Shown here in pieces: positions 4,897-22,289 of a DNA stretch of 64,000 nucleotides. Below the pieces are notes generated by a model that was given only the letters and a program-made list of their open reading frames with translations, was not told where the DNA came from and ran no database searches. Numbering within the stretch: position 1 is the stretch's first letter; every line of letters starts with the position of its first letter. A program made the position numbers and the translations under genes. Source of the stretch: Kangiella geojedonensis (lineage in GTDB: Bacteria > Pseudomonadota > Gammaproteobacteria > Enterobacterales > Kangiellaceae); assembly GCF_000981765.1 (NCBI RefSeq), contig NZ_CP010975.1, positions 2,418,001-2,482,000 on the forward strand. Direction: 5' to 3'.

Positions 4897-5475
4897 ATGA
4901 AACAATTAATGACTGGCATTATCGCCGCAACCGCTATTGCCTTCTCAAGTTCCTCTTCAGCTGAGCCTGTAGAGTATGAGTTTGATACTGTTCACAGCCA
5001 AATCATCTTTAAAATTAATCATTTAGGCTACTCTAACTCTTTCGGTAAGTTTCCAACGTTCCGTGGCGAATTGACTTTTGATCAAGAAGACTGGTCAAAC
5101 TCTTCTACTAGCGTTGAAATTAAAGCTGCTTCTATCGATTTAGAAAACAAAAAGTGGAACGATCATATGAAAAATGCTGATTTTTTCCACGTTGATAAGT
5201 ATTCAAAGCTCAGCTTCAAGAGCACAAAACTAGAGAAAACAGGTGACAACACAGGTGTTCTACACGGTGACTTGACAATTTTAGACAAAACTCGTCCCGT
5301 GACATTGGATCTGACGCTTAATAAAGCCGGTATTCACCCAATGTCAGAACAACAGCATGTCGGTTTTTCAGCGCGCGGCACCATTAAACGTTCAGAGTGG
5401 GGCATGACTTACGGTGTTCCAGCAGTGGCCGACGATGTTCACATTATTATTGAGGTTGAAGCATCGGCTAAGTAA
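4897..5475 (+). CDS. YceI family periplasmic protein
   Basis: This is a 192-aa secreted protein with a signal peptide (about residues 1-22, cleavage after SSSSSA). The mature part fits the YceI lipocalin-like fold: EYEFDTVHSQIIFKINHLGYS, then KNADFFHVDKYSKLSFKST, LTILDKTRPVTLDL and a C-terminal GMTYGVPAVADDVHIIIE. Family members bind isoprenoid or amphiphilic ligands in the periplasm; the ligand here is unknown. A good ribosome site (GAAGGAC) precedes the ATG. It stands alone between ftsX and rpoH. Confidence 0.88.
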   Translation: MKQLMTGIIAATAIAFSSSSSAEPVEYEFDTVHSQIIFKINHLGYSNSFGKFPTFRGELTFDQEDWSNSSTSVEIKAASIDLENKKWNDHMKNADFFHVDKYSKLSFKSTKLEKTGDNTGVLHGDLTILDKTRPVTLDLTLNKAGIHPMSEQQHVGFSARGTIKRSEWGMTYGVPAVADDVHIIIEVEASAK

Positions 5476-5522: not shown

Positions 5523-5614
5523 GACTTCTTCAAGATGTAACACTTTCGATCAAAGCCCCGTCAATATTGACATTTCTTTACCACTTTTTTGATCAAAAGA
5601 CTGAAACTTTTTGC

Positions 5615-5620
5615 TATATT
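5615..5620 (+). promoter_or_regulatory. Candidate -10 element for rpoH
   Basis: TATATT lies directly against the first CIRCE repeat. A start about 7 bp downstream would fall inside that operator, the usual geometry for HrcA repression. The -35 match is poor (TTGATC at 5589-5594 would give a 20-bp spacer), so this is tentative. A second possibility is TTAGCA at 5651-5656 with TAATAT at 5675-5680 (18-bp spacer), which would enclose the second CIRCE. Confidence 0.3.
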
Positions 5621-5646
5621 TAGCACTCTTATTGACAAAGTGCTAA
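5620..5646. promoter_or_regulatory. CIRCE operator 1 (HrcA site), one mismatch
   Basis: The left arm TTAGCACTC (5620-5628), a 9-bp spacer and the right arm AAGTGCTAA (5638-5646) match the CIRCE consensus TTAGCACTC-N9-GAGTGCTAA with a single change in the right arm. CIRCE is the binding site of the repressor HrcA. Confidence 0.88.
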
Positions 5647-5650
5647 AAAG

Positions 5651-5677
5651 TTAGCACTCTCAAGAAAAGAGTGCTAA
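5651..5677. promoter_or_regulatory. CIRCE operator 2 (HrcA site), perfect consensus
   Basis: TTAGCACTC (5651-5659), a 9-bp spacer and GAGTGCTAA (5669-5677) reproduce the CIRCE consensus exactly. It starts 31 bp after the first copy, about three helical turns, so both could be bound on one DNA face. It ends 34 bp before the rpoH ATG and would lie in or next to the promoter or early leader. Confidence 0.95.
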
Positions 5678-5699
5678 TATCAACGTAACTATTAATTTT

Positions 5700-5705
5700 A
5701 GGAGG
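5700..5705 (+). promoter_or_regulatory. Strong Shine-Dalgarno of rpoH
   Basis: AGGAGG followed by GG lies 6 bp before the ATG at 5712, a near-ideal site that fixes this start over the out-of-frame ATG at 5708. Confidence 0.8.
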
Positions 5706-7773: not shown

Positions 7774-8532
7774 ATGACAATGAGTAAGACACTTTCCTTA
7801 AGCATTCTATCCTCCTATTGCTGGCTATCAAAAGATTCACTAAAAAACACTAACCTCCCCCCATCGTCACTTAAAATCTTTGATGTTGAAGACATCGTTC
7901 TTAACCAAATTCCACCAATAAAGCGTCGGCGTTTAAAGGGCTTAAGCAAAATGGCGATGCATACCTCGCTTAGTTGTTTAGACAAAGTCAATTTTTCGGC
8001 TGACGAGGTTTATACTGTCTTTGCATCACAACACGGTGAAATTGGCCGTACAACCAGCATTGTTAACGATATTGTTGATGGTAATGACATTTCGCCAAAA
8101 GACTTCAGTCTTTCGGTTCATAACTCTTCTTTAGGTCTATTTTCTATTTTTAATAAAAATAAGCACTTTGGCACCAGCATTGCGGCTGGTAGCAATACTT
8201 TCGGCTTTGCATTGCTGGAAAGCTACAACCTACTGAAACGTAACCCTAAACAAACAGTATTATTAACCTGTTTTGACTTGGAAGTTGACCAACCTTTCGG
8301 TAGATTACAACAACGCAAGTATCCCAGTTATAGCCTTTCATTATTGCTTTCTTTGAATAAGGCTAACGCCCAAGATATCAGTTTCAGCTTTGAACGATCC
8401 GATATTGAACAATCGTCACATCAGCCTTTAGCGATTGCCTTTTTTGAGTTTTTGCAGGGTGAAATAACCGCCGCACAGTTAAGTTCAGCCGATTACCACT
8501 GGAAGTTCAATAAGCATGCTCCATCGGCTTAA
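7774..8532 (+). CDS. Beta-ketoacyl synthase-like protein lacking the active Cys (chain-length-factor-like)
   Basis: This is a 252-aa protein related to the N-terminal half of beta-ketoacyl synthases, of the short type found first in APE pigment operons. The region SLSVHNSSLGLFSIFNKNKH and FGTSIAAGSNTFGFALLE corresponds to the nucleophile elbow, but Gly139 stands where ketosynthases have the catalytic Cys. It therefore probably acts as a chain-length factor partnering the active ketosynthase encoded at 20596. By analogy this is the ApeC/ApeO type of pair described for APE systems. The start is the first of two nearby ATGs (7774, 7780). Its end overlaps the next gene by 17 bp. Confidence 0.75.
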   Translation: MTMSKTLSLSILSSYCWLSKDSLKNTNLPPSSLKIFDVEDIVLNQIPPIKRRRLKGLSKMAMHTSLSCLDKVNFSADEVYTVFASQHGEIGRTTSIVNDIVDGNDISPKDFSLSVHNSSLGLFSIFNKNKHFGTSIAAGSNTFGFALLESYNLLKRNPKQTVLLTCFDLEVDQPFGRLQQRKYPSYSLSLLLSLNKANAQDISFSFERSDIEQSSHQPLAIAFFEFLQGEITAAQLSSADYHWKFNKHAPSA

Positions 8533-9304
8533 TTACATCTGGCGAGTATTTGCCACAGGGCTGTCCTTCACTACTTTTGGCTTGGGGGGACTGTTCTTAT
8601 CGCTATTTGTTTTCCCGGTGATAAAAGTTTTCAATCCCGACCCCGACATTCGAAAGCGTAAAGCTCGTTATTTAGTTCATCGTTCTTGGCGCTTTTTTAT
8701 CAGTTTTATGCAGAGTTTGGGGATTTTTAGCTTTGATCTCGAGGCTGCGCGCAAAGAACTTCAAGGCGTTGAAGGTAAAGTCATTATCGCTAATCACCCA
8801 ACCTTAATTGATGTGGTCGCTTTAATATCCCTTATCCCAAGAGCCGATTGTGTGGTGAAACAAGGTTTGTGGAATAACTTCTTTTTGAAAAGAGTCGTCC
8901 GAGTAGCTGATTTTATTAATAATGATCAAGATGTGAATAAGCTCATTGAAAGCTGTAAAAAAACCCTCGAAGAAGGGTATAATCTAGTCGTATTTCCTGA
9001 GGGTACTCGCACAGTTCCTAATCAACCGTTAAAATTACAGCGCGGCGCCGCAAATATTGCTATTCGCTGCCAACAAAAACTTTTGCCGGTGATCATCGAC
9101 TGCAACCCAACCACATTAACTAAACAAGAAAAGTGGTACCAGATCCCATCACGACGAGCTAAGTTCTCCATGCGTGTGGTCCAGGAAATCAACATTACTC
9201 CGTTTTTGCAAATGGATAAAAGCGAATCAATCGCTGCAAGAAGATTAACGGAGCATATTAAAACAGTGTTTACTGAGGAAATTTTGAAGAATGAGACCAA
9301 TTGA
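8516..9304 (+). CDS. Lysophospholipid acyltransferase (PlsC-like)
   Basis: This is a 262-aa membrane-associated acyltransferase of the PlsC/LPLAT family. The catalytic HX4D is NHPTLID (His94, Asp99) and the acceptor-binding motif FPEGTRT begins near residue 160. A hydrophobic N-terminal segment (FTTFGLGGLFLSLFVFPVIKVF) should anchor it in the inner membrane. Within a pigment operon it probably helps attach the polyene acyl chain to a lipid or prepares the lipid acceptor. It overlaps both neighbours by 14-17 bp, so translation is coupled. Confidence 0.85.
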   Translation: MLHRLNYIWRVFATGLSFTTFGLGGLFLSLFVFPVIKVFNPDPDIRKRKARYLVHRSWRFFISFMQSLGIFSFDLEAARKELQGVEGKVIIANHPTLIDVVALISLIPRADCVVKQGLWNNFFLKRVVRVADFINNDQDVNKLIESCKKTLEEGYNLVVFPEGTRTVPNQPLKLQRGAANIAIRCQQKLLPVIIDCNPTTLTKQEKWYQIPSRRAKFSMRVVQEINITPFLQMDKSESIAARRLTEHIKTVFTEEILKNETN

Positions 9305-9554
9305 AAACGAGATCAAAGCGGTCATTATTGAATCACTTGATCTAGAAGATATTAGCATTGATGACATTGAGACTTCTGAGCCATTATTTGGGGATGGCCT
9401 CGGTTTAGATTCTATTGACGCACTCGAATTAGGATTAGCCTTAAAAAAGAAGTTTGATATAAAGCTTGACTCTAACTCTGAAGAATCGAAAAAACATTTT
9501 TATTCAGTCAGCACTTTAGCAGACTTCATAGAGCAACAAAAAAGGACTGCGTAA
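9291..9554 (+). CDS. Acyl carrier protein (first of pair)
   Basis: This is an 87-aa acidic acyl carrier protein. The phosphopantetheine attachment motif is GLDSID with Ser41, preceded by FGDGL. It carries starter or elongating polyene intermediates for the ketosynthases of the same operon. A holo-ACP synthase or PPTase acting on it is not encoded in the window. The stop and the next start overlap by one base. Confidence 0.9.
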   Translation: MRPIENEIKAVIIESLDLEDISIDDIETSEPLFGDGLGLDSIDALELGLALKKKFDIKLDSNSEESKKHFYSVSTLADFIEQQKRTA

Positions 9555-9811
9555 TGACTAAGTTAGAAACAAAAGAGCAAATCTATCAACAACTTGTTGT
9601 TATTTTGGTAGAAGACTTTGAAGTAGAGTCTGATGATATCAGTTTAGAAGCTAATCTCTATACGGATCTTGATCTCGATAGTATTGATACAGTGGACTTG
9701 GTCATTAAACTTCAAGAGATCACTGGGAAGTCCGTTAACCCTGAGACTTTCAAAGCCGTTCGCACTATGCAGCACGTTGTTGACGCAGTTTATGACCTAG
9801 TACACGACTAA
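9554..9811 (+). CDS. Acyl carrier protein (second of pair)
   Basis: This 85-aa acyl carrier protein has attachment motif LDLDSIDTVDL, with Ser43 as the phosphopantetheine site. It differs clearly from the preceding carrier protein. Two distinct carriers are typical of APE operons, where one loads the aromatic starter and the other elongates; the split here is inferred. It overlaps both neighbours by a single base. Confidence 0.9.
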   Translation: MTKLETKEQIYQQLVVILVEDFEVESDDISLEANLYTDLDLDSIDTVDLVIKLQEITGKSVNPETFKAVRTMQHVVDAVYDLVHD

Positions 9812-10380
9812 TGGCTCTATTGCTCAAAGTTGCCATCGCTTTGGTAGTATTAGTATATCCCATAGCGATCTATTTTGGGCTTCAGTATCTTCAGCCTAAA
9901 TATTTAGCCATCAGTTTAGCAGCCTTAGTTATACTGCGTGCACTCTTCACAAACAACCAACTTCTTAAGGCCGTAAAAGGGCTTTGGGTTGTCATACTAG
10001 TGGTAGGATTAACTCTTGCCGGTTTTAGTTACTTTAAAAACACCGATCTTGGCTTAAAGCTTTATCCCGTGATTATTTCTGCCAGTTTCCTCGCTTTATT
10101 TAGCTACAGTCTCTTTAAACCACCCTCTGTTATTGAACGCTTAGCACGCCTTCAAGATCCAGATTTACCACCAGATGGAGTTCGTTACACCAGAGCAGTG
10201 ACACAAGTATGGTGTGTCTTTTTTGTCTTCAACATGACAATCGCGCTATACACCGTTTTCTTTTCTACTACCGAAATATGGGCGCTTTATAACGGTTTCA
10301 TATCCTATTTGTTAATGGGGGTTTTATTTATTTCTGAGCTAGCTTACCGCAAATGGGTTCTACAAAAAGGCGGTGATTAA
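9811..10380 (+). CDS. Multi-spanning inner-membrane protein of APE-type operon
   Basis: This 189-aa protein is almost wholly hydrophobic, with about six predicted membrane segments and one polar loop (ERLARLQDPDLPPDGVRYTRAVTQVWC). The loop plus spacing resembles the COG4648-type predicted membrane proteins that recur in aryl polyene gene clusters. No catalytic motif is visible. It may scaffold the membrane-bound acyltransferase and glycosyltransferase steps. Overlaps of one base on both sides tie it to the operon. Confidence 0.7.
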   Translation: MALLLKVAIALVVLVYPIAIYFGLQYLQPKYLAISLAALVILRALFTNNQLLKAVKGLWVVILVVGLTLAGFSYFKNTDLGLKLYPVIISASFLALFSYSLFKPPSVIERLARLQDPDLPPDGVRYTRAVTQVWCVFFVFNMTIALYTVFFSTTEIWALYNGFISYLLMGVLFISELAYRKWVLQKGGD

Positions 10381-11732
10381 TGGATCACATCACAGCACAA
10401 ATTAAACAATTACTTGAAAGCGACAGCGACCAGCTGGTCGCATTTAACGACAGACAGTCATTTTCTCGTCGTGATTTTCAAAAGCATGTTTTGCAAGCCG
10501 CGGCGAACCTTGAGCAGCTTTCCCATCAAAAGTATTTGCTATTTGCTGATAACACCTATGATTTTGCCGTTAATTTTATGGCGTTAATCATAGCTGGGAA
10601 AGATATCGTGTTGACCGCTAATACCAAGCCTGACTGGCTTAAATCCATTGGTCAGTCCTATCAAGCAGTCCTTTCTGATTCGTCTGATGCTGACAGTTTG
10701 TCGATTACACATTACCTCAACAGTGTTGCTCCTACTGACAAATTAGACATACCCAACAACCTGCTAAACATTCTCTCCCAGAGCAAGATCCAATTTTATA
10801 CCTCAGGCTCCAGTAGCGAGCCTAAGGCCGTTTCCAAGCACTTCTCTCAATTGTTGTTAGAAGCACATAATTTAGAACAGTTGTTCGGAGCAGCTATCAG
10901 AAATAGCAAAGTCTTCGCCACAGTGTCGCACCACCATATTTATGGCCTTATTTTTAGGTTGCTCTGGCCTTTATTTTACAAAAAGCCGTTTAACACCAAT
11001 ATTTTGCTTTACCCTGAAGAATTAGTAGCCGCCAGTCAGCATTATTCAGATATCTGCTTAATCTCCAGCCCTGCTTTTTTATCGCGTCATGATAAACAGC
11101 TATCCGATATAGCGTTAACTCAATGCTTTAGCTCAGGGAGTCTTCTGTCGCCCAAAGCGGCTCACTTAACGCGAAAGCAATTCAACCTTTATCCCGTCGA
11201 AGTATTTGGTAGTACAGAAACCGGGGGCATTGGGTATCGCACCCAAGCCAATAATAATACTGTCTGGAGCCTGTTTCCCAGCGTCGCATTAACGCTCAAC
11301 AAAGAAGGGCGGGCTAGGCTAACGTCTCCGTATATACCAAATCCTGAGTACCTAGATGATAACATTGAAATCATTGGGGAGAGTCAATTCCGCTTACATG
11401 GACGCACTGATAGAGTTGTTAAAATCGAAGAAAAAAGAGTGTCGCTAGATGCTCTCGAACAAGCTATAAAGGAGTCGAGCTTGGTCGACGACTGCAAAGT
11501 TGTTGTCATACAACAGCATAGAACTTTTATTGGCGCTGTGGTTGAACTTAGCGATAGTGGAAGCGATTTTTTAAAGAACCACTCTAAACTCCAGCTCAAC
11601 CAACAACTTAAAGAGATGCTAGATTCAAAGTTTGAGGCAGTTGCGATCCCGAGAAAGTGGCGTTATTTTGACCATTTACCCTATAATTCACAGGGAAAGC
11701 TTCCCATCAACACACTGGTCACACTATTTTAA
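10380..11732 (+). CDS. AMP-dependent acyl/aryl acid ligase
   Basis: This 450-aa adenylate-forming enzyme has the phosphate-binding loop TSGSSSEPK at 141-149, the adenylate motif FGSTETGG near 277-284 and the hinge GRTDRVVKIEEKRVSL beginning near 341. The C-terminal catalytic Lys lies in the final NSQGKLPIN segment. It probably activates an aromatic acid such as a cinnamate made by the ammonia-lyase encoded downstream and loads it on an acyl carrier protein, as proposed for APE ligases (ApeH type). The substrate is inferred. Confidence 0.82.
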   Translation: MDHITAQIKQLLESDSDQLVAFNDRQSFSRRDFQKHVLQAAANLEQLSHQKYLLFADNTYDFAVNFMALIIAGKDIVLTANTKPDWLKSIGQSYQAVLSDSSDADSLSITHYLNSVAPTDKLDIPNNLLNILSQSKIQFYTSGSSSEPKAVSKHFSQLLLEAHNLEQLFGAAIRNSKVFATVSHHHIYGLIFRLLWPLFYKKPFNTNILLYPEELVAASQHYSDICLISSPAFLSRHDKQLSDIALTQCFSSGSLLSPKAAHLTRKQFNLYPVEVFGSTETGGIGYRTQANNNTVWSLFPSVALTLNKEGRARLTSPYIPNPEYLDDNIEIIGESQFRLHGRTDRVVKIEEKRVSLDALEQAIKESSLVDDCKVVVIQQHRTFIGAVVELSDSGSDFLKNHSKLQLNQQLKEMLDSKFEAVAIPRKWRYFDHLPYNSQGKLPINTLVTLF

Positions 11733-11733
11733 T

Positions 11734-12093
11734 ATGACATTCCCTGACGTTTTGAACAAACTGCAAACCGACGATGCCACTATGGTCGAACTTGACATAG
11801 ATCCTAGGCTGCAAGCTTTTGAAGGGCATTTTGACTCATTCCCTATTGTGCCTGGAGTGATACAAATTCAGTGGGCATTGCATTTCTTCCAACAAATATT
11901 TCACTCTGAGTCATCCGCAATTGCATGGCGTATCAACAAAGTCACAGCGTTAAAATTCCAACATGTCATCGCCCCCCACAGCAAGGTTAATTTACACTTA
12001 TCCTTTGATGAAGCTAAGTGTTGCTTAACCTTCAAATTTAATAACGATGAACACACTTACTCTTCTGGCAAGCTGTTTCTGGAAAAAAGCTAA
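11734..12093 (+). CDS. Hotdog-fold dehydratase-like protein (ApeI/FabZ-like)
   Basis: This is a 119-aa single hotdog domain. FEGHFDSFPIVPGVIQIQWA matches the FabA/FabZ consensus FxGHFPxxPIxPGV, with the catalytic-type His in GHF. The ATG at 11734, directly after the preceding stop, is preferred over an in-frame upstream ATG at 11632, which would extend 100 bp into the ligase gene and add residues unlike a hotdog protein. It probably dehydrates 3-hydroxyacyl intermediates during polyene extension. Confidence 0.78.
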   Translation: MTFPDVLNKLQTDDATMVELDIDPRLQAFEGHFDSFPIVPGVIQIQWALHFFQQIFHSESSAIAWRINKVTALKFQHVIAPHSKVNLHLSFDEAKCCLTFKFNNDEHTYSSGKLFLEKS

Positions 12094-12098
12094 TCATC

Positions 12099-12863
12099 AT
12101 GGCATCTAACGACTACTGTATTATTATTCCTAACTATAACCATACTCAACATATCGAGAATGTTCTGCAGCAGATATCTCAGCAGCAGCTGCCGGTTATT
12201 TTGATCAATGATGGGAGCAACGCTAAAACTAAGACGTTTTTAATCGAGACTGCCCGCAAATTTAAGTTTGTTAGCTTAATCCACCTTGAGACAAATCAAG
12301 GAAAGGGTGGCGCCGTGATTACTGGACTTCTTGAAGCTCATCGCCAAGGATATAGTCATGCAATACAAGTCGACGCCGATGGTCAGCATGCTATTAACGA
12401 TATCCCCAAATTTATTAACCTCAGCGAAGATGCTTCTCAAGCTGTGATTTGTGGCATACCAGACTACGACAAGTCTGTGCCTTTAGGTCGACTCATACCT
12501 CGTTACATTACTCATTTTTGGGTTTGGGTAGAAACACTGTCCTTTCGGATTAAAGATTCGATGTGTGGCTTTCGTTTATACCCCTTGAGTAGTACCACAG
12601 AGTTAATTCGCAATACTCGCATTGGCAAACGCATGGATTTTGACACTGAAATCTTGGTTAAGCTTGACTGGAAAGCCGTTCCCATCATTAACTTACCCAC
12701 TAAAGTCACCTATCCAGAGGATGGTTCTTCACATTTCCGTATGTGGCAAGACAATTGGCTAATTACAAAAATGCACACCCGCCTTTTCTTCGGCATGCTC
12801 GTTAGGCTGCCGAAGTTAATTGCGCGACACTTTACGCACTCAACCCCAAAAACCACACTATGA
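12099..12863 (+). CDS. Family 2 glycosyltransferase
   Basis: This 254-aa GT2 enzyme has an N-terminal Rossmann-like start (CIIIPNYNH), NDGSNAKT, and the metal-binding DXD as DADGQH at Asp92-Asp94. It resembles polyprenyl-phosphate mannosyltransferase-like GT-A enzymes without membrane segments. In APE operons such genes are thought to glycosylate the polyene lipid or its carrier; the sugar and acceptor cannot be read from the sequence. Its last 4 bp overlap the next gene. Confidence 0.85.
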   Translation: MASNDYCIIIPNYNHTQHIENVLQQISQQQLPVILINDGSNAKTKTFLIETARKFKFVSLIHLETNQGKGGAVITGLLEAHRQGYSHAIQVDADGQHAINDIPKFINLSEDASQAVICGIPDYDKSVPLGRLIPRYITHFWVWVETLSFRIKDSMCGFRLYPLSSTTELIRNTRIGKRMDFDTEILVKLDWKAVPIINLPTKVTYPEDGSSHFRMWQDNWLITKMHTRLFFGMLVRLPKLIARHFTHSTPKTTL

Positions 12864-13849
12864 AAGATAAGCACTGGTCGGCAACTCAAGAGCGCGGCTC
12901 AACCTTCGGTATTCAGTTACTGGTTTGGCTGTATCGTGTCTTTGGTCAGTGGCTATTCCGACTGGTACTGATTCCTGTCATCGGCTACTTTACCCTGACC
13001 GGTAATAAAGCAAAGCAAGCTTCTTATGATTATCTAAGACGTGTAAATGCTTATACCCATAATCCAGCAAAAGTTCGCTGGTATCATGTTTATAAACACT
13101 TTTATCAATTCGGTATTGCCGCTGTCGACAAAATTCGTGCATGGTTAGACGATATAAAGCTAAGTGACGTCACCATTCACCACCCACAAGTTTTCCAACA
13201 ACTGAGAGACAGTAGTCCTAAGCAAGGAGCACTATTTATTGGCTCTCACCTCGGTAACTTAGAGTTATGCCGTGCCATCGGTGAAAACGATACTGATATA
13301 AAAATTAATGCGCTAGTCTTTACAAAGCACGCTTTGAAATTTCAGTCCGCCTTGGAAAAATTTAACCCCAATGCGCAATTGAACTTAATACAAGTAGATT
13401 CGCTTGGTGCTGAAACGGCTATTGAGCTTAAAGATAAAGTCGATAACGGTGAGATAGTCATCATTGTGGGCGATCGCACCTCTGTTACCCAGTACGGACG
13501 AGTTAGTTACGCCGAGTTTCTTGGTCAACCAGCTCCTTTTTCGCAAGGACCATTTATTTTAGCGAATGTATTAGACTGCCCGACTTACTTGATCTTCTGC
13601 CTCAAGCAGTCACGGGGCTACCACATCTATTTAGAGCACTTCGCCGACAGTTTGAAGCTCAGTAGAACTGAGCGGGCTCAACAGTTACAATCAATCATTC
13701 AGCGGTACGCGAGCCGATTAGAATACTATTGCCTAAAAGCACCTTATCAGTGGTTTAACTTTTTTAAATTTTGGCAAAAAGACGATAAAGCGCATATCAC
13801 GCGTGCCGCAATCAACAAAAACGAGAAGCAATCCAGTGACAACAGCTAA
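12860..13849 (+). CDS. LpxL/HtrB-like lipid acyltransferase
   Basis: This 329-aa protein of the lipid A biosynthesis acyltransferase family has a hydrophobic N-terminal anchor (FRLVLIPVIGYFTL) and the catalytic motif HLGNLE (His130, Glu135), followed by VGDRTSV. It is probably an inner-membrane enzyme that transfers an acyl or aryl-polyene chain to a glycolipid acceptor. A second, independent LpxL-type gene sits at 50015-50956, so this copy is likely dedicated to the pigment operon. The end overlaps the ammonia-lyase start by 14 bp. Confidence 0.82.
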   Translation: MKDKHWSATQERGSTFGIQLLVWLYRVFGQWLFRLVLIPVIGYFTLTGNKAKQASYDYLRRVNAYTHNPAKVRWYHVYKHFYQFGIAAVDKIRAWLDDIKLSDVTIHHPQVFQQLRDSSPKQGALFIGSHLGNLELCRAIGENDTDIKINALVFTKHALKFQSALEKFNPNAQLNLIQVDSLGAETAIELKDKVDNGEIVIIVGDRTSVTQYGRVSYAEFLGQPAPFSQGPFILANVLDCPTYLIFCLKQSRGYHIYLEHFADSLKLSRTERAQQLQSIIQRYASRLEYYCLKAPYQWFNFFKFWQKDDKAHITRAAINKNEKQSSDNS

Positions 13850-15383
13850 TTCAACAATCACTTTTGGTCTTTCAAAGATCACTATTGAACACATTAATGC
13901 CATGGCAAAAGGCCAAGCGCAGATATCTCTTAGTTCTGATAAAAACTTTAAAGAGACCATAGAGCAGGGTGCTAATTTTCTCAAGAACTTGCTGCAAGAA
14001 GACGGTGTTATTTATGGCGTAACCACTGGTTATGGCGATTCAGTGACTGAGCAGGTACCGCTGGGTAATGTCCATGAGCTTCCACTTCACCTGACTCGTT
14101 TTCACGGCTGTGGTTTAGGGGATACTTTTTCGGTTGAAGAAACTCGCGCTATTTTGGGCGCGCGACTTACATCCCTAACCCAAGGTTATTCAGGCGTAAC
14201 ATGGGAATTGTTAGAGCAACTTGAAACCTTACTGGCCCATGACATCATGCCTCGAATTCCTCAAGAGGGCTCCGTAGGCGCTAGTGGTGATCTTACTCCG
14301 CTATCGTATGTTGCAGCCGTTTTAGTCGGCGAGCGTGAGGTTTTTTATAAGGGTGAATTAAGGTCAACTAACGATGTTTTTGAGGAGCTTAACATTAAGC
14401 CCTTAACGCTACAGCCTAAAGAAGGCTTGGCCATTATGAACGGCACAGCTGTAATGACGGCGCTTGCATGCATCGCATATCAACGTGCTGAATACTTAAT
14501 TGAGCTTTGCTCTCGAATTACTGCTTTGTGCTCAATCGCATTACAGGGCAATAGTGCGCATTTCGATGATATTCTGTTTAACGCTAAGCCACACCCTGGT
14601 CAAAACCAAGTGGCAGCCTGGATTAGAGACGACCTGAATCACCACAAGCATCCGCGTAATTCCAGTCGCCTGCAGGACCGCTACTCTATACGCTGCGCAC
14701 CACACATCATTGGTGCAGTGAAAGATTCTTTACCTTGGATGCGTCAAATCATCGAGACCGAACTGAATAGCGCTAATGACAATCCGATCATTGATGGCGA
14801 AGGCCAACATGTTTTGCATGGGGGCCACTTCTATGGTGGGCACATAGCCATGGTTATGGACACCCTAAAAACTGGCATCGCAAACCTTTCAGATTTAATG
14901 GATCGCCAAATGGCGTTACTGATGGATCGAAAGTTTAATAACGGTCTACCTAATAACCTTTCGGCTGCCCAAGAGGACCGTAAAGCGATCAATCATGGTT
15001 TTAAGGCGGTGCAAATTGGTATCAGCGCATGGACAGCTGAAGCACTAAAAAATACCATGCCCGCTAGCGTCTTCTCACGCTCTACCGAATGTCATAACCA
15101 AGATAAAGTCAGCATGGGCACTATCGCAGCGCGTGACTGTTTACGCATATTACAATTAACCGAACAGGTTGCGGCAGCCTCGTTAATGGCTTCAAGCCAA
15201 GCAGTAAAAATCCGCATTGATCGGCAAGAGCTTGAGCATGAGTCATTATCCGGCAGTATTAAGAATACTTTGGATGAGGTGTTTACCATCTTTAAGCTCG
15301 TCGATGAAGATCGTCCGTTAGAAGCTGAACTCCGGAACTTTGTTTCCTTGATACAAGATCAACACTGGACAACCTATAAATAA
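13836..15383 (+). CDS. MIO-type aromatic amino acid ammonia-lyase
   Basis: This 515-aa enzyme of the HAL/PAL/TAL family has the Ala149-Ser150-Gly151 triad (VGASGDLTPLSY) that cyclises to the MIO cofactor, Tyr60 in IYGVTTGYG as general base, and NSANDNPII. It removes ammonia from an aromatic amino acid; no hut genes are adjacent, so histidine degradation is unlikely. The selectivity pair reads Phe89-His90, unlike the Ser-His, His-Leu or Phe-Leu pairs I recall for typical HAL, TAL and PAL. I chose GTG 13836, with GAGAAG 7 bp upstream, over GTG 13803. Confidence 0.85.
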   Translation: MTTANSTITFGLSKITIEHINAMAKGQAQISLSSDKNFKETIEQGANFLKNLLQEDGVIYGVTTGYGDSVTEQVPLGNVHELPLHLTRFHGCGLGDTFSVEETRAILGARLTSLTQGYSGVTWELLEQLETLLAHDIMPRIPQEGSVGASGDLTPLSYVAAVLVGEREVFYKGELRSTNDVFEELNIKPLTLQPKEGLAIMNGTAVMTALACIAYQRAEYLIELCSRITALCSIALQGNSAHFDDILFNAKPHPGQNQVAAWIRDDLNHHKHPRNSSRLQDRYSIRCAPHIIGAVKDSLPWMRQIIETELNSANDNPIIDGEGQHVLHGGHFYGGHIAMVMDTLKTGIANLSDLMDRQMALLMDRKFNNGLPNNLSAAQEDRKAINHGFKAVQIGISAWTAEALKNTMPASVFSRSTECHNQDKVSMGTIAARDCLRILQLTEQVAAASLMASSQAVKIRIDRQELEHESLSGSIKNTLDEVFTIFKLVDEDRPLEAELRNFVSLIQDQHWTTYK

Positions 15384-15392
15384 GGCTTGGTG

Positions 15393-15839
15393 ATGAATAA
15401 TAAAACACTACAACAACACGCTATAGCGGCTGAATGCTTTGTTGAAGTTCCCTTCTTTGACCTCGACCCCATGCACATTGTCTGGCATGGTAATTACGTC
15501 AAATACTTTGAGCAGGCGCGCTGTGAATTGCTCCGAAAGATTGACTACGACTACCCTCAAATGAAGGCTTCAGGATTTTATTGGCCGATTATTGATATGC
15601 GCGTCAAGTACATAAAACCGGCTAATTTTGGTGAAAAATTATTGTGCATTGCCACCTTCAAAGAGTTTGAGAACCGCCTCAAGATCGATTACCTCATCCA
15701 AAATGCTCAAACGGGTGAAAAGCTCTGCAAAGGTTATACAGTTCAAGTAGCCGTAACAACGACAGATTTTGAAATGCAACTTGTATCGCCAAAAATACTC
15801 CAACAACAACTAGAAAGCTATATTGCTGATTTATCATGA
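15393..15839 (+). CDS. Hotdog acyl-(CoA/ACP) thioesterase, 4-hydroxybenzoyl-CoA thioesterase-like
   Basis: This 148-aa thioesterase has the YbgC/4HBT motif FFDLDPMHIVWHGNYVKYFEQARCELL, with the acidic residue of FDLDPM and H-x-N-Y typical of the active site. It could release the polyene or proofread carrier proteins. The ATG at 15393 is used; an in-frame TTG at 15387 would add two residues. The stop overlaps the next ATG (ATGA). Confidence 0.83.
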   Translation: MNNKTLQQHAIAAECFVEVPFFDLDPMHIVWHGNYVKYFEQARCELLRKIDYDYPQMKASGFYWPIIDMRVKYIKPANFGEKLLCIATFKEFENRLKIDYLIQNAQTGEKLCKGYTVQVAVTTTDFEMQLVSPKILQQQLESYIADLS

Positions 15840-16462
15840 TGAATAAACTTGCTCAACTACTCGTGACACTGGTTATTGCTTTTGTAAGCACAACTGTCTT
15901 CTCAAGCGAAATAAACTCGTGCGATATCAATACAATGATGCAAACAATACAGCATCAACCACATCTTCAAAAATTCAAGCAAGAAAAAAACATCAAAGTT
16001 CTAGCAAACCCTCTAACATCATTTGGCTACCTCTTACTGGCTAATCAAGAAGCCGTGGTTTGGCAAACAACCCAGCCTATCAAGAGCACCACCGTCATAA
16101 GTCCTAACAACTTTCGTCAGTACAATAAAAAAGACCAGTTAATGACCATGCCGGCCAATACTAGCAATCAAACTTCCCAGCTGGTTTCGTCAACTTTTCT
16201 GTCAATATTGTCTGGTACTATTGATCAGTTGAACGACAACTTTGAGGTCAGTACTTCTTGCTCAGAAACCGAATGGCATATAAGCCTTATCCCTAACAAT
16301 AATGACATCCTTCGCTTACTTCAAAAAATTGATATCACAGGCAACATACAAATCAATCAGCTGAACTTTGTCGAAACCAACCAAGACATCACCCAAATTA
16401 GCTTTACGCCTACTGATGACTCCACCATCAAAAACCAACTAAGGTCCTACCTTGCCAACTAA
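15836..16462 (+). CDS. LolA-like periplasmic lipoprotein-carrier-related protein
   Basis: This 208-aa protein has a Sec signal peptide (about residues 1-24, ending VFSSE). The mature part resembles the LolA/outer-membrane carrier-like proteins of APE operons (FKQEKNIKVLANPLTSFGYLLLANQEAVVWQT), a half-barrel that could shield a hydrophobic lipid in the periplasm. It is distant from true LolA by eye. It sits directly before an MMPL exporter, suggesting a relay from inner to outer membrane. The second in-frame ATG at 15839 is an alternative start. Confidence 0.7.
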   Translation: MMNKLAQLLVTLVIAFVSTTVFSSEINSCDINTMMQTIQHQPHLQKFKQEKNIKVLANPLTSFGYLLLANQEAVVWQTTQPIKSTTVISPNNFRQYNKKDQLMTMPANTSNQTSQLVSSTFLSILSGTIDQLNDNFEVSTSCSETEWHISLIPNNNDILRLLQKIDITGNIQINQLNFVETNQDITQISFTPTDDSTIKNQLRSYLAN

Positions 16463-18782
16463 GTATCGAGCCTTTATTTGGCTATTTCTCATCTTTATTG
16501 TTGGCGGGTTTTTCTATGCCCAGCTTAATGCTGGTTTACGGATTGAAACCAATATTTTAAAACTGGTTCCGCAAACCGAAGCTGACCCTTTTGCGGAAAA
16601 GGCCTTTGAAAAATTTTCTGATAACAATTTTAAAAAAGTTATTTTTGCTCTTATCTCTGACAGTGAATCTACCACCATAAGCTCTGCTCAAGCGCTGTCC
16701 CATTCCTTGAAACAATCAGGGTTATTGGAATCCTTAGATTCACACATCAGTCAAGATGAACAAGAAGCCATAGGTCAGCTCTACTTTAATCACCGTTTCC
16801 ACTTACTCAGTGATAATGATAAAAGAATATTGCAGCAAGAAGGTCACCAACCCTTCGTTGACGCTGCGTTACAGATGGTCTATTCACCACTATCCAGTCA
16901 GCTGATAACTTTGTTGCCTAGCGACCCTTATCTATTATCTTACCGCTACTTACAAGACATCACTGCACTCAACTCAACACATAACCAGAGAAGAGTTGTC
17001 GACGAGATTAGCCTATACTCTAATAAAAGTGATACTTACGCTGTAGTTACAGCAACCTTGAAAGCGTCACCATTTGACAGCAACACTCAACAAAATCTAT
17101 CGTCTCTGGTTACACAGTTTCAAGAGTCCCATCCCTCGACACAGTTGCTCTATACTGGCGCAGTATTTTATGCACAGCATGCAGCGACCTCAGCTAAATC
17201 GGAAATTTCAACCATTGGACTGGGCTCCTTAATTGGTGTCATTGTTCTTTTGATTCTTGCTTTTAAAAGCGTCACGCCACTGCTCTTAACATTAACATCG
17301 CTCGCGGTAGGAATTTTCCTAGGGTTTACCATGACCCACGCATTCTTTGGTTCAGTACATGTTCTAACCCTAGTTTTTGGCGCCAGTCTTATCGGCGTCG
17401 CCGTAGATTACTCGTTCCACTATTTTGCCAGCGCCAATGAAACGCCAAGCCCTTTACCAAAAATTTTAGCCGCAATTAGTTTAGGCCTTATTTCTAGCGT
17501 CATAGGCTATGCCGCATTGTTCACGACACCATTTCCAGGCTTGCAGCAAATGGCTCTTTTCTGTGCCACTGGACTGATTGGTGCATTTTTAACTGTTACG
17601 CTTCTATTTGATCAAATGCCTACTAAAGCAAAAAGCCCCAGCTGGCTACTGTCGACTTTTGTGGGCTTAAGCCGTATCAGCCAAAAACTCAGTACCCCGA
17701 AATTTCTGTTCATACTTCTAGTTGCGCCTATTTCGGCGGGATTGCTACTAACCACAATCGATGAAAACAACGACAGCATCCGCCAACTGCAAGCAATACC
17801 ACCACAGCTTCATCAACAAGAACAGGCCATTCAACAACTCGTTGCCGCTCCAGCGACCAATCAGTTCTTCGTGGTAAAAGGCTCCAGTCACCAAGAGTTA
17901 TTGAGCAAACTTGACGCAGTGACTCCAGAGCTTCATAAGCTAAGGGAGCAGGACGTTATTGATGGCTATACCCACTTGGCTCAATTTGTGCCGTCGTTAC
18001 AAGAGCAAAGCGCCAACTATCAATTAATTTCTAACTTTATAGATACTGATTCTTTATCAGACTTCATCGATCTGGGGCTCGTGACTCACGAACAAGTCGT
18101 TTCTTTAGGTTCGGAGTTTGCATCTAAAGAAAAGCAACTCCTCACGTTAGAACCATGGCTCCAGTCTCCGCTTGGCCAGCGACTGTCTTATCTATGGCTT
18201 GGACAAATCGATCAACAATATTCCTCGATTATTACACTGCATAATATTCATCACATAGAGCCTCTTGCCAAGCTTGCTGACAAAAACCCTTATTTATACT
18301 TTATTAACAAAGTTGATAAAGTCTCCAGTATGTTTTCAGAATACAGAGAACTGACATTAATCATGTTATCGATTGCTATTACAGTGATCTTTTTATTACT
18401 GTCGATTAAATATAATGCGCGTATCGCTGGTTATATCGTTTGGGGACCTGTCGTCGCTTCATCGCTCGCCATTATTATGAATATACTGATTAACGGTAGT
18501 TTTAATTTATTTAGCACCCTAGCGTTATATTTAGTCTTTGGTATTGGTATTGATTATGGATTATTTTACGCTGAGTCCAAAGATCGCTCAAAATACATAA
18601 GTCTTGCTATCGGGCTTTCAGCAATCACGACGTTTCTATCCTTTGGCCTACTATCCCTTAGTGAAACTCCAGCTATCCATGCTTTTGGTTTAACCATGTT
18701 AACGGGCATATTGACAGTCTTCTTGCTGTCGCCAATACTTGGCCATCAAATCTACCACGCAAGGGAGTCCGCCGGTGATTAA
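16452..18782 (+). CDS. MMPL/RND-family exporter
   Basis: This 776-aa membrane protein has RND layout: TM1, a large periplasmic loop (residues about 30-245), TM2-6, a second TM (near 415-435), a second loop and five C-terminal segments. Each half has the MMPL signature near GASLIGVAVDYSFHYF and FGIGIDYGLFYAES. Such exporters in APE operons are proposed to extract the pigment lipid from the inner membrane. It starts at TTG 16452, overlapping the LolA-like gene by 11 bp. Confidence 0.85.
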   Translation: MPTKYRAFIWLFLIFIVGGFFYAQLNAGLRIETNILKLVPQTEADPFAEKAFEKFSDNNFKKVIFALISDSESTTISSAQALSHSLKQSGLLESLDSHISQDEQEAIGQLYFNHRFHLLSDNDKRILQQEGHQPFVDAALQMVYSPLSSQLITLLPSDPYLLSYRYLQDITALNSTHNQRRVVDEISLYSNKSDTYAVVTATLKASPFDSNTQQNLSSLVTQFQESHPSTQLLYTGAVFYAQHAATSAKSEISTIGLGSLIGVIVLLILAFKSVTPLLLTLTSLAVGIFLGFTMTHAFFGSVHVLTLVFGASLIGVAVDYSFHYFASANETPSPLPKILAAISLGLISSVIGYAALFTTPFPGLQQMALFCATGLIGAFLTVTLLFDQMPTKAKSPSWLLSTFVGLSRISQKLSTPKFLFILLVAPISAGLLLTTIDENNDSIRQLQAIPPQLHQQEQAIQQLVAAPATNQFFVVKGSSHQELLSKLDAVTPELHKLREQDVIDGYTHLAQFVPSLQEQSANYQLISNFIDTDSLSDFIDLGLVTHEQVVSLGSEFASKEKQLLTLEPWLQSPLGQRLSYLWLGQIDQQYSSIITLHNIHHIEPLAKLADKNPYLYFINKVDKVSSMFSEYRELTLIMLSIAITVIFLLLSIKYNARIAGYIVWGPVVASSLAIIMNILINGSFNLFSTLALYLVFGIGIDYGLFYAESKDRSKYISLAIGLSAITTFLSFGLLSLSETPAIHAFGLTMLTGILTVFLLSPILGHQIYHARESAGD

Positions 18783-20034
18783 TTCAAATCAAGAATACGA
18801 TGTCATTATTATTGGCGCAGGGCCTGCTGGAGCGCTTGCAGCGAGTCTGTTGGTACAGAATCACTTACGCGTCTTAGTCATCGAGAAGCAAACATTTCCC
18901 CGCTTTTCTATCGGCGAAAGCCTATTACCCCAATCCATGGTTTACCTCGAGCAAGCCAAGCTACTGTCTGCCGTAGAAGCCAGTGCGGATGAGCTTGGTT
19001 TCCAATATAAAAACGGTGCTATTTTTAACTCGTCTGAACAAGATTCTATTTTTGATTTCTCACAAAAGTTGAGCGAAGGTCCCGCATACACCTACCAAGT
19101 TAAACGTGCTGAATTCGATCAGCTGCTAGCCCAAAAGGCCCAAGAATTTGGTGCAGACTTTGCTTTCGGCTATACCGTTAAGAGTATTGAGTTTACCCCA
19201 GAGCCCATACTTACCATTTCGCATCCCAAAGACGACGAATTAAAACTGCATAGTAAATTTGTTCTAGATGCCAGTGGCTTTGCTCGTGTTTTACCACGAC
19301 TACTTGATCTCGATCTGCCAAGTGACTTCCCGGTAAGAAGTTCTGTATTTGCGCATATTAGCGACAACATCAACAACTCTAGCTTTGATCGGAATAAAAT
19401 TCTTATCGGCTCGCACCCGCAAGCCCAAGACGTCTGGTACTGGCTAATACCCTTCGCTGATGGCACAGCTTCCATTGGTTGTGTTGCCAAACCTCAATTT
19501 TTTGATGATATTCGCAACACTGAAGCGCTTGATTCAGATAATGCTTTACTGCTTCATTGCATTCAGCAAAACAAACGTTTTGGCGCTCTATTATCTGAGG
19601 CTGAAATCATTAGACCCGCACAACAACTCACTGGCTACTCGTCTAATGTGAAACAATTATATGGTGATCACTATGCCTTACTCGGGAACGCAGGAGAATT
19701 TTTAGATCCTATATTTTCTTCAGGCGTTACCATTGCTTTTAAGTCCGCATCTTTAGCCAGTGATTGTCTGTTGAAACAGTTTAATCATACGCCGGTATGC
19801 TGGGAGCGTGAGTTTTCTCAACCTTTAAAAGCTGGCGTTGAAACTTTTAAAGCCTTTGTTCACTCCTGGTATCAAGGCCAATTACAACAAATCATTCAAT
19901 TCGAAGAAGCTCCCCAAAACGTCCGCGAAATGATTTGCTCTGTCTTGGCTGGCTACGCTTGGGATGAACAGAACCCATATAATCAAAACACACAAAGGCG
20001 ACTCAATGCTTTAGGAGAGTTATGCGCCTCTTAA
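18775..20034 (+). CDS. FAD-dependent oxidoreductase, halogenase/geranylgeranyl-reductase-like
   Basis: This 419-aa flavoprotein has a dinucleotide-binding GAGPAG at 14-19, PRFSIGESLLP at 42-52 and a WYWLIP motif at 221-226 resembling the GWxWxIP motif of flavin-dependent halogenases. FQYKNGAIF places a Lys at 79, near where halogenases carry their catalytic Lys. It could halogenate or oxidise the aryl head, or act as a reductase; sequence alone does not decide. GTG 18775 with AAGGGAG upstream is preferred to TTG 18739, which lies further inside the MMPL gene. Confidence 0.75.
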   Translation: MINSNQEYDVIIIGAGPAGALAASLLVQNHLRVLVIEKQTFPRFSIGESLLPQSMVYLEQAKLLSAVEASADELGFQYKNGAIFNSSEQDSIFDFSQKLSEGPAYTYQVKRAEFDQLLAQKAQEFGADFAFGYTVKSIEFTPEPILTISHPKDDELKLHSKFVLDASGFARVLPRLLDLDLPSDFPVRSSVFAHISDNINNSSFDRNKILIGSHPQAQDVWYWLIPFADGTASIGCVAKPQFFDDIRNTEALDSDNALLLHCIQQNKRFGALLSEAEIIRPAQQLTGYSSNVKQLYGDHYALLGNAGEFLDPIFSSGVTIAFKSASLASDCLLKQFNHTPVCWEREFSQPLKAGVETFKAFVHSWYQGQLQQIIQFEEAPQNVREMICSVLAGYAWDEQNPYNQNTQRRLNALGELCAS

Positions 20035-20603
20035 ATCTCATACTTATACTACTATTGCTAAGCGGCTGTCTTAGCAAGTATCAAAACTCGATTGAACATG
20101 TGTCGATTGCAGATAACGTCAACTACACTTTGTTACCAACCATTCCCTTTAGCAATGGTTTAACAATGACGCAAAGTGCTACTGTGACTTATCAAGATGA
20201 AAGTCATGATCTTATTTTTCACACTGAAATCACCAATCGGCAATTGACTATGGTGGGGTTAAGTCCGACTGGCACCCGATTATTCACCATTGTGATGCAA
20301 GAAGGCTCGGTTAACGCTGAAGGCTTTTCCTCCCTGATCGATGCCATTAAACCCGAGTACCTGTTAGCAGACCTTCAATTAAGCTTATGGCCACAAAGCC
20401 AACTTAACCAAAATTTGAGTGGGGCAGTTGTTAAAGAGCCTCGTCCGTTAACACGAAACGTGGTTCAAGCAAACAACACAATTATTACTGTTCACTACTC
20501 TGAGGCAGAATATTATAAAGGTGATATACAATTTACTCATCACCAAAGAGGCTATAACCTAAGCCTGACACCATTAGCTATAGAGTTTTCTAACGATGAA
20601 TGA
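20022..20603 (+). CDS. DUF3261-type lipoprotein
   Basis: This 193-aa protein has a lipoprotein signal peptide (LLLLSGC, lipid Cys at residue 16). The body (TRLFTIVMQEGSVNAEGFSSL, then IKPEYLLADLQLSLWP and a C-terminal YNLSLTPLAIEF) resembles DUF3261 lipoproteins that recur in APE operons and look LolB-like. It may receive the product at the outer membrane. It overlaps both neighbours (13 and 8 bp). Confidence 0.78.
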   Translation: MRLLNLILILLLLSGCLSKYQNSIEHVSIADNVNYTLLPTIPFSNGLTMTQSATVTYQDESHDLIFHTEITNRQLTMVGLSPTGTRLFTIVMQEGSVNAEGFSSLIDAIKPEYLLADLQLSLWPQSQLNQNLSGAVVKEPRPLTRNVVQANNTIITVHYSEAEYYKGDIQFTHHQRGYNLSLTPLAIEFSNDE

Positions 20604-21789
20604 TTCCACTGTGTATCTCAATCATATGTCACTAATCAACGCGCTTGGTTACCGACATAATGACGTATTAACTCAATTGCATTCTGGCGACACTAGCAAC
20701 ATGCAAGAATATTACACCACAATTAATCATAAACGCTTCGTTGTAGGTAAGGTCGCTCAAGAGTTGCCGGCTATCCCTGAGCAGTTGATAAAACATAATA
20801 CCCGTAACAACCAGTTAGCTTTACACTGCTTACTACAACTTAAGACTCAGCTTGATAACTGCCTTAACCAATATCCTGCTCACCGTATAGGAGTAGTTAT
20901 CGGAACCAGCACATCCGGTATAGCAGAAGGTGAACAAGCGTTAGCGCATTATTTGAAACAGTCATCCTTTCCGAGCGAGTTTAACTACTCACAAATCCAA
21001 ATGTCTTCCTGTGCAGAGTTTATCAGCGACTATTTGGGTACCAAGGGACCTACTTATACGATATCGACTGCTTGTTCATCCAGCGGCAAAGTTTTCGCTT
21101 CAGCCAGAAGTCTTATCCACAACAACCTATGCGATGTGGTCATTGTTGGTGGCGCTGATTCACTCTGCGATATGACTTTAAATGGATTTAATGCTTTGGA
21201 AGCCGTATCAGAGCGATTATCTGTACCTTTCAGCGCTAACCGCGACGGTATCAATATTGGGGAGGGAGCTGCATTATTTATAATGAGCCGAGAGCCGAGT
21301 GATGTTCAATTACTGGGTGTCGGAGAATCCTCTGATGCTCACCACATTTCAGCGCCACACCCCGATGGCGAAGGCGCAGCTACCGCAATGCAACTAGCGT
21401 TACAAGAAGCCAACATATCCGCAGATGACATTCACTACCTCAACCTTCATGGCACTGGCACCGAGTTAAACGACTCCATGGAAAGTCGTGCGGTAAATGC
21501 CGTACTAACCAATAACACACCATGTAGTTCCACGAAACCGCTAACGGGCCATACATTAGGCGCAGCAGGCGCCACTGAGCTCGCTTTTTGTTGGTTACTT
21601 CTACAATACCCTAACGATCAGCAGCTGTTACCTAAGCATTGTTTTGATGGATGTTATGACACTTCATTGCCCGTCATGAACCTAGTTGATAACCAACAGA
21701 CTTATCCTTCTATACAAACCGCCATGAGTAACTCTTTTGCCTTTGGCGGCAATAATGTCAGTGTTATAATTGGTCGTAACCGTATTTAG
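20596..21789 (+). CDS. Beta-ketoacyl-ACP synthase (elongating ketosynthase)
   Basis: This 397-aa FabF-like ketosynthase has the full catalytic triad: Cys160 in STACSSSG, His285 in LHGTGTE and His319 in TGHTLGAAG. It should carry out decarboxylative condensation in polyene elongation, probably as a heterodimer with the Cys-less protein at 7774. The C-terminal NSFAFGGNNVSVIIGR is the usual family end. Confidence 0.9.
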   Translation: MNDSTVYLNHMSLINALGYRHNDVLTQLHSGDTSNMQEYYTTINHKRFVVGKVAQELPAIPEQLIKHNTRNNQLALHCLLQLKTQLDNCLNQYPAHRIGVVIGTSTSGIAEGEQALAHYLKQSSFPSEFNYSQIQMSSCAEFISDYLGTKGPTYTISTACSSSGKVFASARSLIHNNLCDVVIVGGADSLCDMTLNGFNALEAVSERLSVPFSANRDGINIGEGAALFIMSREPSDVQLLGVGESSDAHHISAPHPDGEGAATAMQLALQEANISADDIHYLNLHGTGTELNDSMESRAVNAVLTNNTPCSSTKPLTGHTLGAAGATELAFCWLLLQYPNDQQLLPKHCFDGCYDTSLPVMNLVDNQQTYPSIQTAMSNSFAFGGNNVSVIIGRNRI

Positions 21790-21793
21790 TCTT

Positions 21794-22279
21794 ATGCAAA
21801 CTACTATAAACACAGATATAAAGAATCGCCTCGTATCAATGCCAATCTCGGAGTTGCTACCGCACTCCGAGCCCATGATATTGATCACTCGTATTGCTGA
21901 CTTTCACCAGCAAAGCCTTCGCGCTGAAGTCGATATCAGCTCAGATTCGCGTTTCTTTGATGCAGAGCATCAAGGCGTGGAGAGCTTCTTTGCTATAGAG
22001 TATATGGCTCAGGCCATCGCAGCTTTAGCAGGGGTCAGATCTCGTTTGAGTAATGAAGCTGTTAAATTAGGCTTTTTATTAGGCACCCGAAAAATGCAAC
22101 TTCACAGCCCTTTTCTGAAAGCTGGCCATACATATCAAGTTAACGTCGAAGAGCTTTTTATGGATGACTCCGGGCTCGGCGCATTCCAATGTTCAGTATC
22201 CTGCCAAGACGAGATCATCGCTGAGGCAAAACTCAGTGTTTTTGAAACCAATGATGAAAACCAACTTTTAACTAACTAG
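21794..22279 (+). CDS. 3-hydroxyacyl-ACP dehydratase-like hotdog protein (ApeP-like)
   Basis: This 161-aa hotdog protein has LLPHSEPMILI near the N-terminus, AEHQGVESFFAIEYMAQAIAALAG in the central helix and LGTRKMQLH, matching the APE dehydratase family (COG4706-like). It probably pairs functionally with the hotdog protein encoded at 11734 to form trans double bonds. ATG 21794 is chosen because it lies just after the preceding stop. An in-frame TTG at 21770 lies inside the ketosynthase gene, and an ATG at 21839 is also possible. Confidence 0.8.
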   Translation: MQTTINTDIKNRLVSMPISELLPHSEPMILITRIADFHQQSLRAEVDISSDSRFFDAEHQGVESFFAIEYMAQAIAALAGVRSRLSNEAVKLGFLLGTRKMQLHSPFLKAGHTYQVNVEELFMDDSGLGAFQCSVSCQDEIIAEAKLSVFETNDENQLLTN

Positions 22280-22289
22280 ATATTTGATT

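Follow-up and report, generated by a model that had tools for sequence, protein, structure and literature searches.

How is the gene for sigma-32 controlled in Kangiella geojedonensis, in which two inverted repeats resembling CIRCE, the operator of the repressor HrcA, stand directly before rpoH? The window analyzed here is a stretch of 64,000 nucleotides (64 kb). An initial annotation had described one exact and one single-mismatch CIRCE in tandem at this place, in a 31-bp register, and a motif scan confirmed this arrangement. The two operators start 31 bp apart, leave a gap of 4 bp between them, and are the sole matches with three or fewer mismatches in the window, while shuffled versions of the window contained a mean of 0.01 CIRCE and two sites were found in 0 of 100 shuffles. 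The one mismatch of the distal operator falls on the first base of its right arm, a position occupied by a base other than G in 8 of the 20 genomes of the same genus, and 34 bases lie between the end of the proximal operator and the rpoH ATG (Table 1). A role of the operator pair in serving the YceI-family-like gene was rejected because that gene lies upstream of the pair on the same strand.

Table 1. Coordinates of the rpoH locus in the window and of the further CIRCE in the genome.
Feature	Position	Strand	Basis or remark
YceI-family-like gene, upstream of the operators	4897..5475	+	best model NF002994, 134 bits, below cut-off 232; outside the operator
SigmaE-type -35, GAAACTT	5603..5609	+	regular-expression match; spacer of 17 to TCTTA
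Distal CIRCE operator	5620-5646	+	TTAGCACTC-N9-AAGTGCTAA, 1 mismatch; site present here in 20/20 same-genus genomes
SigmaE-type -10, TCTTA	5627..5631	+	within the distal CIRCE: end of left arm and loop bases 1-3
Proximal CIRCE operator	5651-5677	+	TTAGCACTC-N9-GAGTGCTAA, exact match
Extended -10, TGCTAATAT, sigma70 type	5672..5680	+	predicted; overlaps right arm of the proximal CIRCE
Shine-Dalgarno, AGGAGG	5700..5705	+	read from the sequence
rpoH, sigma-32, 283 aa	5712..6563	+	TIGR02392 (NCBIfam equivalog), 415 bits, cut-off 323
Third CIRCE	C1:2300947-2300973		just upstream of an ORF reading as groES

The neighborhood and leader of rpoH were also described. Beside the gene, at 7774-24232 of the window, lie small acyl-carrier-like ORFs, an AMP-ligase-like protein, a HAL/TAL-family ammonia-lyase (13803-15383) that scored under the curated cut-offs, and two beta-ketoacyl-ACP synthases above cut-off, a group that we take to be an aryl-polyene or flexirubin-like biosynthesis cluster. 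For comparison with the RNA thermometer of E. coli type, in which structure in the coding region hides the ribosome site, pairing was predicted for rpoH. The predicted mean unpaired value of the rpoH ribosome site was 0.50 across 20 genomes of the genus, higher and hence more open than the 0.24 of four enterobacteria and the 0.30 of six vibrios and photobacteria. The fold z-score of rpoH was 0.67 in the window, with means of -1.25 for the genus, -2.21 for the four enterobacteria, and -0.99 for the six vibrios and photobacteria.

Control by HrcA presupposes the repressor, and a search of the one-contig, 2.495-Mb genome returned a single hrcA match above cut-off (314 bits against a cut-off of 197), whose product has 1stz as its PDB relative and which is followed by an ORF reading as grpE. 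The genome also encodes rpoE (323 bits, cut-off 236). Three CIRCE with three or fewer mismatches were found in it, two at rpoH and one at groES. The initial annotation had proposed groES, dnaK, and hrcA as places to search for further operators. With grpE, dnaK, and groES assigned by eye from ORF translations, the 350 bp preceding hrcA, grpE, and dnaK each contained no CIRCE with six or fewer mismatches. From the three-site count and the lack of CIRCE before these genes, the HrcA regulon is predicted to consist of groESL and rpoH alone.

The same layout recurred in every genome of the genus. Tandem CIRCE preceded rpoH in 20 of 20 genomes, in a register of exactly 31 bp every time, and hrcA scored above cut-off in all 20. 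Nineteen of these genomes contained exactly three CIRCE with two or fewer mismatches and one contained four; a fourth CIRCE-like site, with two mismatches, was seen in a same-genus genome at G024:C21:6414-6440 (L148). The third CIRCE preceded groES in all 14 of the 20 genomes examined for it. Mean column identity over the 20 genomes was 0.93-0.99 in the arms, compared with 0.58 and 0.71 in the loops and 0.55 and 0.59 in the flanks. In 40 genomes of the family, a strong rpoH match was present in 37, hrcA in 37, and at least one CIRCE with two or fewer mismatches in all 40. The wider family set comprised 38 rpoH upstream regions from 37 genomes, including a broken second rpoH copy of G012; this copy (L122, G012:C30) has seven in-frame stops and still carries an exact CIRCE upstream. 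Both sites (three or fewer mismatches) were found in 29 of the 38 regions, their starts 30, 31, or 33 bp apart in genera other than that of the window, and several other regions retain a decayed remnant of one site. The loop of one CIRCE upstream of groES (L184, in G014) counts 8 bases instead of 9.

Outside the family, the operator was usually single. In a class-wide sample of 369 genomes, a tandem pair in the 31-bp register with three or fewer mismatches was found in one genome only, that of the window, which is the sole member of its family in the sample; the doubled form therefore looks specific to this bacterium's family. For a broader view of rpoH, we used the best 80 of 592 rpoH stretches from named genomes, mostly labelled gamma- or betaproteobacteria. 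Among these 80 loci, a CIRCE lay within 400 bp upstream of rpoH in 35 with two or fewer mismatches allowed and in 36 with three or fewer, and none carried two. The initial annotation had implied that CIRCE is rare at rpoH, and this part of it fails, given a single site in 35 of the 80 closest loci (best 80 of 592) and a predicted one in Geobacter sulfurreducens. The same count suggests that HrcA control of rpoH is likely to be common where hrcA persists. In two loci of the set, from Luteimonas terricola and a Lysobacteraceae strain (L034 and L062), the arms of the rpoH site are variants that read TTAGCAGTC ... GACTGCTAA or close to it, which suggests co-evolution of HrcA and CIRCE in this group. 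The helical phasing of the double site had been taken to suggest cooperative binding; we do not accept it as proof of cooperativity because shared ancestry or promoter overlap could also fix the spacing.

What the operators might block was then read from promoter elements built into them, which the initial annotation had not noted, by comparison with the sigmaE, sigma32, and extended -10 consensus sequences. SigmaE promoters have a GGAACTT-like -35, a spacer of 16-17 bp, and a TCnnA -10. The distal CIRCE is predicted to contain the -10 of such a promoter, GAAACTT-N17-TCTTA, with the AAC of the -35 positioned 15 bases before the operator; the spacer of 17 in the window compares with 16 in most relatives. 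GAAACTT or GGAACTT-like elements precede the distal CIRCE in the family; of 30 regions, 23 match a strict sigmaE motif and all 30 a loose one. In 13 of the 20 same-genus genomes, the -10 spans the junction of left arm and loop, taking up the end of the one and the first bases of the other; in the other seven (L093, L099-L104), the distal CIRCE does not include the sigmaE-like promoter, which is located farther upstream. In the 80-locus set, 20 of the 36 CIRCE-bearing loci had a sigmaE -35 ahead of the first CIRCE at a distance of 14 or 15 bases, and 16 had none at the composite distance; in the family, the count was 20 of 30 loci. Shuffled upstream sequence gave mean counts of 0.17 and 0.10 and maxima of 3 and 2 for the two sets, respectively, in a test whose window of 13-16 bases was picked post hoc for a motif first noticed in the family.

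One test was independent of these post hoc choices. We searched 229 genomes of the class for the pattern GGAAC-N11-CIRCE with the loop left free and obtained matches in 128, which include groES and hrcA sites with a spurious GGAAC. The loop comparison was made on 149 listed rows, corresponding to 127 sites in 89 of the 128 matching genomes; the row of the genome studied here was left out because the pattern fell on its proximal site, in another register. GAAC stood at the exact distance, 14 bases before the CIRCE, in 58 of the 127 listed sites, hereafter the composite sites. Among the matches listed, 53 of the 58 composite sites had A at loop base 3, compared with 13 of 72 orientations for the remaining sites (p ~4e-18); at loop base 7, which mirrors it, T was found in only 20 of the 58. 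An A at loop base 3 is what the composite arrangement entails, since the -10 TCnnA is made of the TC of the arm and NNA of the loop. All 15 composite sites whose loci were examined lie at rpoH, and at least one of the 58 (G105:C77) is upstream of hrcA rather than rpoH.

The proximal operator has a predicted element of its own, the extended -10. In the 80-locus set, 30 of the 36 CIRCE-bearing loci have the bases NAT after the right arm, which form TGCTAANAT with it; AT makes up 6.4% of dinucleotides there. In the family, NAT follows the proximal or only CIRCE at 27 of 30 loci, and distal sites are mostly followed by AAA. ACT takes the place of NAT after the proximal site in 9 of 38 family regions, all from the genera g2 and g3. 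When the 36 single-CIRCE loci of the 80-locus set were sorted by both elements, 16 had both promoter halves, 14 had NAT alone, 4 had the sigmaE -35 alone, and 2 had neither. A generic sigma70 scan returned no promoter here. A sigma70 promoter built on the TTGACA in the distal loop (5632-5637) was also considered and rejected, as the scan contained none and the hexamer occurs in only 3 of the 20 same-genus genomes.

The groES operator presented a third combination. There, the last loop bases run into the right arm to give TTGA[GA], CCCCAT follows exactly 14 bases on, and the operator thus reads as carrying the -35 of a putative sigma32 promoter. TTGA[GA]-N14-CCCCAT was found at 24 of 25 family groES loci, the 25th of which contains N, and at 7 of 7 further loci, with one genome present in both sets; it was found at none of 90 rpoH CIRCE sites. 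We lean slightly toward a general picture in which a single CIRCE at rpoH in beta- and gammaproteobacterial relatives is often three elements in one, namely, operator, sigmaE -10 in its left half, and extended -10 in its right half. In this family, the element would have been doubled and its roles split, with sigmaE at the distal copy, the extended -10 at the proximal copy, and the pair about three helical turns apart; since the groES CIRCE is likewise joined to a sigma32 -35, promoters of three different sigma factors would be gated by one repressor that senses a chaperone.

Family members that have lost the repressor offer a natural comparison. Two genomes, G036 (100% complete) and G004 (98%), are without hrcA. 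Their groES CIRCE has decayed to six mismatches or is unrecognizable while the sigma32 elements are kept. At rpoH, the better site has two mismatches and the other six or more, and the sigmaE elements are kept as GAAACTT-N16-TCTAT in G036 and GAAACTT-N16-TCTTA in G004. G036 also retains the extended -10 TGCTAATAT. Decay of operators with retention of promoters after hrcA loss backs the HrcA model as support, not proof, because sites were also lost in genomes that have hrcA: one of the two is missing at L105, L107, L108, L112, and L119, and the rpoH sites of G014, which has hrcA, are weak (two and four mismatches). The opposite case is G009, with no hrcA match yet a perfect groES CIRCE; an assembly gap is the likely but unproven explanation, since this genome is 95% complete and lacks a strong rpoH match. 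In the class sample, CIRCE-pattern matches tracked hrcA: of 164 genomes that have the gene, 123 gave a match, and of 65 that lack it, 5 did, and those five are 62-86% complete.

HrcA repression of rpoH, as proposed initially, appears to be the best reading of this locus because hrcA exists and the sites are conserved and coincide with predicted promoters of rpoH. We consider it probable that the pair forms a compound promoter-operator through which HrcA, assisted by GroEL, represses two promoters of rpoH, one for sigmaE and one for sigma70. That HrcA binds and represses, that these promoters are used, and that GroEL is involved are all inferred here; HrcA activity is known to need GroEL in other bacteria. 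With predicted starts at ~5637 for sigmaE and ~5687 for sigma70, each operator would cover one promoter, the distal CIRCE that of sigmaE at its core and the proximal CIRCE that of sigma70 type. While GroEL is free, active HrcA would occupy both operators and block both promoters. Once unfolded protein occupies GroEL, HrcA activity would be lost and rpoH derepressed, as follows from the dependence on GroEL in other bacteria. Envelope stress could add an extra drive on rpoH through sigmaE. Sigma32 would then activate groESL, whose promoter also bears a CIRCE, and new GroEL would restore HrcA and close the loop.

Other explanations share part of this evidence. HrcA might repress rpoH through the two sites while the matches to sigmaE and extended -10 elements arose by chance and one conventional promoter elsewhere drives the gene. 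The promoter assignments are motif-based, and the loci of the 80-locus set with NAT alone, the sigmaE -35 alone, or neither would fit such a view; the fixed distance of 14-15 bases, the class-wide preference for A at loop base 3, and the retention of promoter elements after hrcA loss argue against it, and we regard it as unlikely. That the sites are relics of a past HrcA control, now unused, is very improbable. The distal mismatch and the missing operators before hrcA, grpE, and dnaK speak for it, but the arms remain 93-99% identical in 20 genomes in which loops and flanks drift, every one of these genomes has hrcA above cut-off, and the two near-complete genomes that lack the gene show degeneration of both sites.

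The repeats could also act as RNA hairpins in the rpoH leader, either a stability element or a thermometer, rather than as DNA operators. They are inverted repeats, and a transcript from the sigmaE promoter would include the proximal one; transcription from the predicted proximal start would begin downstream of both. Among 19 distinct sequences, however, there were no two-sided pair changes, and arm changes went uncompensated, with pair 9-19 broken in 8 of 19 and pair 3-25 in 4 of 19. No Rfam family exceeded its gathering score between 5000 and 7000, and the operators have decayed in the two hrcA-less relatives. We rejected the hairpin reading on the absence of compensatory changes and the negative Rfam search, and give it hardly any credence.

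The rpoH gene of E. coli has a sigmaE-dependent promoter, P3, and a predicted sigmaE-type promoter likewise lies upstream of rpoH here. No CIRCE was found at four enterobacterial rpoH loci (L045, L052, L066, L070), and the E. coli control genome gave no hrcA match. In Geobacter sulfurreducens, a CIRCE upstream of rpoH has been predicted (Rodionov 2004, PMC545781). The operator consensus, the repressor, and the target rpoH are common to both organisms, as is the groESL target; G. sulfurreducens is listed with one consensus site at -51 plus a CIRCE at hrcA-grpE-dnaK-dnaJ (PMC545781), whereas the locus studied here has a pair of sites in fixed register that overlap predicted promoter elements, and its predicted regulon is limited to groESL and rpoH. 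A Helicobacter pylori review describes the need of HrcA for GroEL and HrcA operators near or over the -35 and -10 core-promoter elements (PMC6032397), a closeness or overlap also predicted here. In the accessible text of three sources (PMC545781, PMC6032397, and PMC3989490), CIRCE at rpoH is predicted in the first alone and sigmaE or extended -10 elements inside CIRCE appear in none.

The full-text literature on HrcA, CIRCE, and rpoH, as far as it was accessible and with few subscription papers covered, yielded no report of a sigmaE promoter or extended -10 within CIRCE or of tandem CIRCE at rpoH. The likeliest prior source is a 2003 study by Permina and Gelfand, which may already report CIRCE at rpoH of beta- and gammaproteobacteria. 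HrcA control of rpoH, well supported by the sequence, is itself not new; the promoter-overlapping, doubled layout seems unreported.

Accounts of the heat-shock response usually oppose activation by sigma32, as in E. coli, to repression by HrcA, as in Bacillus. Here the two logics appear nested, in that the amount of activator would depend on a repressor that senses GroEL, and the input of envelope stress through sigmaE would act at the same element as HrcA. The doubled site would provide a natural example of an operator-promoter element that was duplicated and its roles divided. If the composite is functional, the nested circuit would be widespread among beta- and gammaproteobacteria with hrcA, and bacteria without the gene would be left with the scheme known from E. 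coli.
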